From Frankiales bacterium (GTDB taxonomy: Bacteria > Actinomycetota > Actinomycetes > Mycobacteriales > SCTD01), in contig JAODNB010000303.1 in the NCBI GenBank assembly GCA_025464795.1, forward strand, positions 1 through 34,529: DNA of 34,529 bases, given 5' to 3'. A model generated the notes under the pieces. It was not told where the DNA came from. It did no database searches and saw only the letters and a program-made list of their open reading frames with translations. The position numbers were made by a program, and so were the translations under genes. Below are positions 27,009 to 29,387 of the stretch, piece by piece. Position 1 is the stretch's first letter. Each line of letters begins with the position of its first letter.

Positions 27009-28076
27009 CTACTTGTCGATGTCGCCGACGGTGAAGAAGAAGGAGGCGAGGATCGCGGGCAGGTCCTGGACACGGGACCCGGGCAGCACCGAAGGCAGCG
27101 CCGACACGTTGTTGAACGAGGGCGTCCGCATCGCCAGCCGCCACGGCGTGGACGCTCCCCGCGACACCAAGAAGTAGCCGACCGCCCCGGACGGGGCCTC
27201 GGTCCACCGGTACGCGGACCCCTCGGGAGCGCGGACGGCCTTGGGCAGCTTGACGTTCACCGGGCCGGTCGGCAGCTGTGACAGGCAGGCGTCGACGAGG
27301 TCCAACGACACCGACACCTGCTGCTGGAGGCAGGAGAACCGCGCGGCCGCGTCGCCGGTCGTGCCCAGCACCACTGGGACGTCCAGGGAGGGGTAGAGCA
27401 GGTACGGGTCGTCGCGGCGAAGGTCGAGGTCGAGCCCCGACCCGCGGGCCACGGGACCTGACACCCCGTACGAGAGCGCGTCGGCGACCGACAGGACGCC
27501 CAGCCCCGCGAACGCAGCGAGGTCTAGCGCGGGGAGCGCTGAGCGCACGGCCGCGACCGCGGAGGAGCAGCGCGACGCCCAGCCCGCCGGGACGTCCTCC
27601 AGGAGCCCGCCCACTCGGGTGCAGACCACGTGGACCCGGCCGCCCGTGGCCTCCTCGAGCACCTGCTGCAGCGGCTCGCGCAGCAGGACGCAGGACGGCT
27701 CGACGTACCCGAGGAACATCAGGTGCGACAGCACTCGGTTGAGCTCGGCGAGCAGCATGCGCAGCCAGGTCGCGCGGGGCGGCACCTCCATGCCGAGGGC
27801 CTGCTCCACGACGAGCGCCACGCCCAGCTCGTTGTTGAACGCTGCGAGCCAGTCATGCCGGTTCGCGAGCATCAGGATCTGCCGGTAGTCCCGGACCTCG
27901 AACAGCTTCTCCGCACCGCGGTGCAGCGCCCCGACCACCGGCTCCGCCCAGGTGACGATGTCGGAGTCGAGCCCCAAGCGGAGCCGCAGCGAGCCGTGCG
28001 TGGACGGGTGGTGCGCGCCCAGCTCGAGGGTGATGTCAGAGGGCCCCGCGGCTGCTCCGATGCCGGCGACTGTCAC
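27009..28076 (-). CDS. NADH-quinone oxidoreductase subunit D-like protein (orphan NuoD paralog)
   Basis: [65 protein letters not shown]-terminal TVGDIDK. GTG start overlaps the upstream methyltransferase stop. Confidence 0.87.
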
Positions 28077-28957
28077 CCGCCCATCCAACCGTCCGTCAGG
28101 CCGACCCGCTGCACCAGCCACCCGAAGCCACCCAGGCCGGCCGGGTCCAGGAGCTCGGCGGCTTGCGATGCCCGCTCGAGTCCGAGCGCGTACGAGGGGT
28201 CCGCTGCGTCCGGGAGGGTGGCGCGGATCCCCAAGGCGTGCAACGCGGCCCGCTGGGTCATCAGCTCGGCCCCGGTCGCCGCTGCGCAGGAGTCCAGGGC
28301 CACGTGCGCGGTGAGGTCGCGCGCACCGTCCGGGACAGGTGGGACCTGCAGCCCGTCCCGATAGCCGGTCAGCGTCGGGCGCCGGGTCTCCATGACGTGG
28401 CCGTAGTCGATCGCGACGGCGGCTCCCCGAGTCACCCTGGAGACGGCCTGCGCCCAGGCCTCGTCGCGGGACCAACCGTCCTCGACGCGAGCGCCGGCGG
28501 GCCACCAACGATCGGCCCAGGCCGAGTCCACCGGGTCACCGAGGGACTCACTGCCGTCAGGTGCGACGAGGACCTCACGCCCGTTCTCCAGGACCTGCAG
28601 CGGCACAGCGTCCAGCCACTCGTTGGCAACCAGGAGCCCTGTCAGCACAGGGATCTCGGAGGTCCAAGCGAAGGGCACGTCGGCGTCCGCGACGTCCACG
28701 CCGGTCAGCCGCCAGCGCTCGGGGACGTCACCGAGCCCGAGCAGCAGCTCTCCGCGGCCCGCGCCGACATCGACCAGGTCGAAGGGGTCCGGGAAGCCGA
28801 GAGCTGCATCCACGCGGTGGGCGAGCCGCAGCACCGCCTCCGCGAACAGCGGGACGGCGACGTTCGTGCGGAAGTGCTCGCCCGGCACCTCGTGCCGGAA
28901 GAAGCCGGAGGACCCGTAGAGCGCCTCGTTCCACGCCGAGCGCCAAGATGTCGCCAT
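28073..28957 (-). CDS. NDUFAF7/MidA-like (DUF185) SAM-dependent methyltransferase
   Basis: [74 protein letters not shown]. Start could also be ATG at 28966. Confidence 0.8.
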
Positions 28958-29387
28958 GGTGCACATCGGTCAGACCATCGGTATGTCAGTCGTGGAGCGT
29001 GCGGAAGGGCGGTCCGTGCTGACGTGGGACGCGCAACCGGAGTACGGGTTCCCGACGGCGTCGGGCCAGGTCATCCACGGAGGCATGGTCACCACGATCC
29101 TGGACAGTGCCATGGGGGGTGCCACCTGGTCGGTACTGACCGACGACGAGGTGTTCCTGACCGCGGACCTGCGGGTGGAGTTCTACCGGGCGACGCGACC
29201 AGGTCAGCTCACAGCGAAGGGCCTGGTGATCAAGCGGACCTCCCGGCTCGTCTTCGCGTCCGCCGAGCTGTTCGATGCTGAGGAGAGGCTGCTCGCGAGC
29301 AGCCGCTGCACCCAGACGGTCCTGCCGGCAACCGGCGGCGCAGCCCGTCCCGACCCTTCGAAGCGGGGGTTCGACGCCCGGGGCTGA
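28956..29387 (+). CDS. PaaI-family hotdog-fold thioesterase
   Basis: VIHGGMVTTILDSAMGGATWSVL, TADLRVEFYRATRPGQL. ATG at 28983 is an alternative start. Confidence 0.83.
   Translation: MVHIGQTIGMSVVERAEGRSVLTWDAQPEYGFPTASGQVIHGGMVTTILDSAMGGATWSVLTDDEVFLTADLRVEFYRATRPGQLTAKGLVIKRTSRLVFASAELFDAEERLLASSRCTQTVLPATGGAARPDPSKRGFDARG

Follow-up and report, generated by a model that had tools for sequence, protein, structure and literature searches.

A MidA/NDUFAF7-family methyltransferase gene coupled to the displaced D subunit of a second complex I-type module in Actinomycetes

Arginine methylation of the NDUFAF7 type has been studied mainly in mitochondria and Paracoccus. In humans, NDUFAF7 symmetrically dimethylates the arginine of an HRG motif (Arg85) in the complex I subunit NDUFS2 (PMC3829151). 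The equivalent arginine is required for cluster N2 in Yarrowia, is unmethylated in E. coli, and is replaced in Thermus by a threonine, which is offset by an arginine in the NuoB homologue (PMC8042128). Streptomyces is known to carry a nuo2 cluster with a separate nuoD2 gene (PMC3765725, PMC8388888). The papers that we found mention that nuoD2 is separate, and none of them links it to a methyltransferase.

Here, we analyzed a 34,529-nucleotide stretch of DNA from a Frankiales bacterium (the window; contig JAODNB010000303.1 of assembly GCA_025464795.1), in which a methyltransferase gene overlaps a gene for a NuoD-like protein, D2. The pair is like NDUFAF7/MidA and NDUFS2 in the family and fold of the methyltransferase and in the HRGxEK motif of the partner beside the N2 cluster. 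By contrast, it is bacterial, the methyltransferase is gene-coupled to its presumed substrate, and this substrate is a subunit not of the main complex I but of a second assembly that lacks NuoEFG. The separately encoded D2 of Streptomyces and its relatives is an ortholog of the window's D2. However, those bacteria keep the nuo2 membrane genes, whereas the cluster in the window's clade retains only B2, C2, and I2.

The gene pair and its products

Both genes lie on the minus strand. The methyltransferase open reading frame spans 28073–28966 and could start at the ATG at 28966 or at the ATG at 28957; the latter is more likely and gives a 294-residue protein (28073–28957) of the SAM-dependent MidA/NDUFAF7 family (Methyltransf_28/DUF185). 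D2 (27009–28076) encodes a 355-residue NuoD-like subunit of a second complex I-type module, and its start shares a 4-nt GTGA with the methyltransferase stop codon (28076–28073), an overlap that the initial annotation had described correctly. The same annotation regarded D2 as an orphan NuoD. For the window this is accurate, since no further nuo gene was found there in a search with NuoA, NuoB, NuoC, NuoD, and NuoH–NuoN references; for the genome it is not, because a second set of NuoB, NuoC, and NuoI genes is present on another contig.

The surroundings of the pair are folate/pantothenate genes, and DUF2520 and panC are found near D2 in about 36–38 of 80 loci on relatives' contigs. The ATG of a divergent PaaI-like thioesterase reading frame (28956–29387, plus strand; ATG at 28956) overlaps the methyltransferase ATG (28957, minus strand) within 28955–28966, on opposite strands. 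Were the thioesterase to start at the ATG at 28986 instead, a short divergent promoter region would be left.

The methyltransferase scored 46 bits against Pfam PF02636 (Methyltransf_28; cut-off, 23.3 bits). A phmmer search of the PDB with its single sequence returned no match; a profile of 18 relatives matched the DUF185 structures 4f3n and 1zkd and Dictyostelium MidA, an NDUFAF7 homologue (5ztz). The six best Foldseek matches of the predicted structure (pLDDT 93) were all DUF185/MidA proteins, including 4g67, 1zkd, and 5ztz (TMq 0.74–0.80), and the remaining listed matches had a TMq of at most 0.43. By profile and predicted fold, METHYLTRANSFERASE is a genuine MidA/NDUFAF7-family protein, as the initial annotation had supposed, and it is the sole PF02636-family member found in the window's genome, which is 75% complete. 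Three minus-strand motifs stand out: a SAM-binding DVGAGRG (residues 63–69, 28751–28771), with D63, G67, and G69 invariant among the 18 relatives; a DYGH (residues 184–187, 28397–28408), with D184, Y185, and H187 invariant in the alignment and the motif also present in 1zkd; and a DLTAH (residues 214–218, 28304–28318), with D214 and T216 invariant and H218 in at least 90% of sequences, whose counterparts are DLTAHV in 1zkd and DITAHV in 4f3n. The N-terminal part, unlike that of NDUFAF7/MidA, has diverged: the TSPE-like motif (DFxTSPE) of other MidA proteins is replaced by HFRT-N/S in the window protein's family.

D2 scored 174 bits against Pfam PF00346 (Complex1_49kDa; cut-off, 24 bits), and its model, of moderate confidence (pLDDT 73), matched NDUFS2, NuoD, and NdhH structures with a TMq of about 0.75–0.80. 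D2 nevertheless scored too low to pass as canonical NuoD by the NCBIfam cut-offs (TIGR01962, 261 versus 459 bits; NF004739, 274 versus 360 bits), and in a tree the D2 clade stands apart from canonical NuoD. His23 (HPSTHG; codon 28008–28010, minus strand), the equivalent of the conserved quinone-site histidine, is invariant in the D2 alignment. The quinone-site tyrosine is missing, however: where the genome's canonical NuoD reads RMDY, D2 reads RHDW (Trp76; codon 27849–27851, minus strand), and nearly all D2 proteins have tryptophan at this position where canonical NuoD has tyrosine. The HRG codons were placed at 27915–27923 by the initial annotation, and they do encode His52-Arg53-Gly54 within ALHRGAEKL. 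Arg53 (codon 27918–27920, minus strand), the equivalent of NDUFS2 Arg85 and the putative methylation site, is invariant in the D2 alignment.

Co-occurrence of the pair and its presumed target

In a survey of 198 genomes of the class, the methyltransferase (PF02636) was found in 64 and D2 in 72, with neither in 126. All 64 methyltransferase genomes contain D2 (Fisher p = 1.5e-43 over the 198 genomes, phylogeny ignored), and a methyltransferase with canonical NuoD only occurred in none of the 198. The two genes lie on the same contig, at most 12 kb apart, in 62 of the 64, and on separate contigs of fragmented assemblies in the other two. Among the 80 loci on relatives' contigs, 70 have the methyltransferase within 300 bases of D2. 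Since this close spacing is kept in changing orientations (46 co-directional, 24 opposite), the link survives rearrangement, and the adjacency seen in the window is indeed conserved in related genomes.

The genome's canonical NuoD (L004, 12737–14047) reads LHTGIEK, with threonine at the target position, and D2 reads LHRGAEK, with arginine. Canonical NuoD carried HTG in 30 of 30 loci of the phylum sample, and D2 carried HRG (HRGAEK) in 80 of 80 relatives' contig loci; D2 proteins at the phylum level have HRG, HRA, or similar, and one (L150) reads MHRGYEK. A role for the methyltransferase in servicing the canonical complex I of this class was ruled out, because canonical NuoD has threonine there and the methyltransferase never occurs with canonical NuoD only.

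The methyltransferase is not obligatory, given that eight of the 72 D2 genomes lack a PF02636 match and that several full nuo2 operons have the arginine but no methyltransferase. The latter are complete operons with an Arg-type D2 in genomes without a PF02636 gene (L170, L171, L173, L175, L177, and L186); their arginine may be the substrate of another enzyme or may, like that of E. coli, carry no methyl groups. One of the eight genomes, G229 (L327), has D2 together with a divergent methyltransferase detected by BLAST; canonical NuoD was not found there at the threshold used, and its single NuoH scores like the nuo2 type, so this genome may have no complex I other than nuo2. At the level of the phylum, the methyltransferase was found in 38 of 120 genomes, 37 of which also showed an Arg-type NuoD. 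The exception, G090 (L190), has two PF02636 proteins, and the only NuoD seen there is of the HTG type, possibly reflecting a MidA with a different substrate.

Could the methyltransferase-fold protein have its target elsewhere in the module, in another residue or another protein, or serve as a non-catalytic assembly chaperone for D2? Substrate specificity is not readable from sequence, the TSPE-like motif has changed, and Arg-type D2 also occurs without the methyltransferase. On the other hand, conservation is strong at the SAM site and in the DYGH and D-x-T-A-H motifs, the methyltransferase strictly co-occurs with Arg-type D2, and exactly this residue is the substrate of NDUFAF7 (PMC3829151); we therefore consider such a role improbable. 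The enzyme-substrate relationship put forward in the initial annotation is instead strongly supported by the 64-of-64 co-occurrence, the linkage, the invariant arginine, the residue switch described below, and the MidA fold, from which we infer that D2 Arg53 would be the residue methylated.

A second complex I-type module and the probable loss of its membrane genes

On contig C213 of the same genome, we found the end of canonical NuoN followed by a polyprenyl synthase gene, then NuoB2, NuoC2, NuoI2, and HtpX. The initial annotation had envisaged a stand-alone module outside the nuo operon. The module is indeed separate from canonical complex I, but the pair is not alone, and a two-gene stand-alone unit was ruled out by the presence of the B2-C2-I2 set. 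Rather, the pair supplies a second complex I-type assembly, which here consists of B2-C2-D2-I2, with its displaced D subunit and its maturation factor. Deep lineages (L159–L162 and L209) have a complete operon, A2-B2-C2-D2-H2-I2-J2-K2-L2-M2-N2, that is NuoEFG-less and is followed by the methyltransferase gene. L171 and L175 have the nuo2 operon after canonical nuo and the polyprenyl synthase gene, with D2 in place and HtpX at the end. In Micromonosporaceae, Streptosporangium, and Kitasatospora, the nuo2 membrane genes are kept and D2 has moved next to the methyltransferase gene or away. The HtpX protease gene regularly closes the nuo2 cluster (L168, 15564–17741; L165, L171, and L175).

B2 and I2 retain their Fe-S ligands: the N2 cysteines of B2 (CC, C, and GCPPRP) and two CxxCxxCxxxCP motifs in I2, the ligands for two 4Fe-4S clusters. 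B2 of the window's genome has threonine at the position that partners the D2 arginine (VVSGTLTD), so D2 fits B2 and not canonical NuoB. Among 66 operon loci, which are related and in a few cases overlap and so are not 66 independent events, NuoD threonine was paired with NuoB arginine in 32 and NuoD arginine with NuoB threonine in 34, without exception. The Thr/Arg arrangement of Thermus Nqo4/Nqo6 is thus common to canonical actinobacterial NuoD/NuoB (PMC8042128), whereas the D2/B2 pair is reversed and has the mitochondria-like Arg/Thr. A switch that had earlier been proposed from few structures is exceptionless here, both across the phylum and within single genomes that hold both versions.

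Seven Frankiales-type metagenome-assembled genomes share the layout of polyprenyl synthase, B2, C2, and I2, with HtpX seen in five. A2, H2, and J2–N2 were not found in the cluster between polyprenyl synthase and HtpX in the window's genome or in the related assemblies, and no second membrane-subunit set (NuoH2 and so forth) was found in either, H2 being judged by genome search and J2–N2 by synteny. Most of the related assemblies have one canonical-type NuoH: G120–G123, G126, and G127 have one NuoH each, G125 has a single partial one, and G124 has an additional divergent NuoH-like match (122 bits). Streptomyces, Actinoplanes, and Streptosporangium each have two or more NuoH, and a single NuoH match was found in 26 of the 72 D2 genomes of the class survey. 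Because the window's genome is 75% complete and yielded no NuoH of any type, the evidence that the membrane arm was lost comes from gap-free synteny and from the relatives. Further families likewise have B2-C2-I2 minus the membrane genes (L293, L295, L297, L298, L304–L307, and L309). The D2 proteins of the clade without H2 form one group nested among full-arm Actinomycete D2 (support 85/87, not decisive), which suggests a single loss.

The remaining subunits have changed as well. A PRQ loop in B2 is present in 17 of 17 genomes with H2 and in none of 15 without it. In mammalian PSST, the PRQ loop holds a hydroxylated arginine near the quinone tunnel (PMC3750175), and we read the B2 loop as its likely equivalent. 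In the reduced clade, the amphipathic N-terminus of I2 and the 'ELGAITP' loop of D2 are also missing or remodelled. All these segments of B2, D2, and I2 are expected to face the membrane and quinone.

These losses bear on the idea that B2-C2-D2-I2 docks on the canonical membrane arm, feeding it ferredoxin electrons as a membrane-bound, quinone-reducing enzyme. The canonical nuo operon sits directly upstream of B2-C2-I2 in the same genomes, D2 retains His23, and a set of B, C, D, and I is that of the hydrophilic arm of ferredoxin-using NDH-1. Yet B2 lacks the quinone-tunnel loop and I2 the amphipathic N-terminus, the D2 loop after helix 3 is remodelled, tryptophan replaces the quinone-site tyrosine, and loop loss tracks the absence of H2. 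We consider docking rather unlikely.

The stepwise disappearance of operon genes and loops might also mean that a second complex I has been lost and that D2 and the methyltransferase are what is left of it, decaying and without function. This is very hard to reconcile with open reading frames, with a pN/pS of 0.26–0.45, which places the genes under selection, with the retention of the Fe-S ligands and the arginine across several families, and with the persistence of B2-C2-I2 as a unit. Instead, B2-C2-D2-I2 seems to be a second version that lost its membrane arm in this lineage. We think it probable that the module is the remnant of a second, NuoEFG-less assembly without its membrane arm and with a dedicated MidA-type methyltransferase.

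Proposed working of the module

The ancestor would have been an 11-subunit NuoEFG-less complex (A2-B2-C2-D2-H2-I2-J2-K2-L2-M2-N2), distinct from the normal 14-subunit complex I. In Actinomycetes, D2 would have left the nuo2 operon and come to lie beside the methyltransferase gene; the window's clade would have lost the membrane subunits and kept the peripheral B2, C2, D2, and I2, with D2 as the putative catalytic (49-kDa/NuoD-type) subunit. Before or during assembly with B2, the methyltransferase would dimethylate D2 Arg53. The modified arginine may pack against and stabilize cluster N2, which is presumably held by B2 with its threonine at the partner position, and so lock D2 to B2. Ferredoxin would probably deliver electrons to the two 4Fe-4S clusters of I2, from which they would pass via N2 and the remodelled D2/B2 pocket to an acceptor that is probably water-soluble. 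That this Actinomycetes lineage has a soluble NuoBCDI enzyme, which passes electrons of ferredoxin type to an acceptor other than quinone and is matured by a MidA-type methyltransferase of its own, is in our judgement an even proposition; its solubility, donor, and acceptor we infer.

KorA/KorB (2-oxoglutarate:ferredoxin oxidoreductase) genes adjoin B2-C2-I2 in five reduced genomes (G141, G157, G170, G210, and G273; L293, L295, L297, L304, and L309). POR_N had no match in the 75%-complete genome of the window or in G121, G122, and G125–G127. As an indication of ferredoxin as the donor, the KorA/KorB neighborhood is only suggestive.

The hydrophilic arm of cyanobacterial and plastid NDH-1 consists of NdhH-I-J-K, and that of the methanogen enzyme of FpoBCDI. 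The module is like these arms in its subunit types (D, I, C, and B), in the absence of NuoEFG, and in a probable ferredoxin-type input, a comparison drawn from established knowledge, with the fold match covering NdhH only. By contrast, the arms of NDH-1 and Fpo are attached to a membrane arm and have quinone or methanophenazine as the substrate that they reduce, whereas in the window's clade a membrane arm of the module's own was not found and the quinone-site elements are changed.

A linked enzyme-substrate pair in bacteria whose main complex I does not have the target residue would provide a clean genetic system for the role of the methyl groups. If true, a NuoBCDI module without a membrane arm would amount to a complex I dissected by nature and would reveal the work of the Fe-S core when no protons are pumped.
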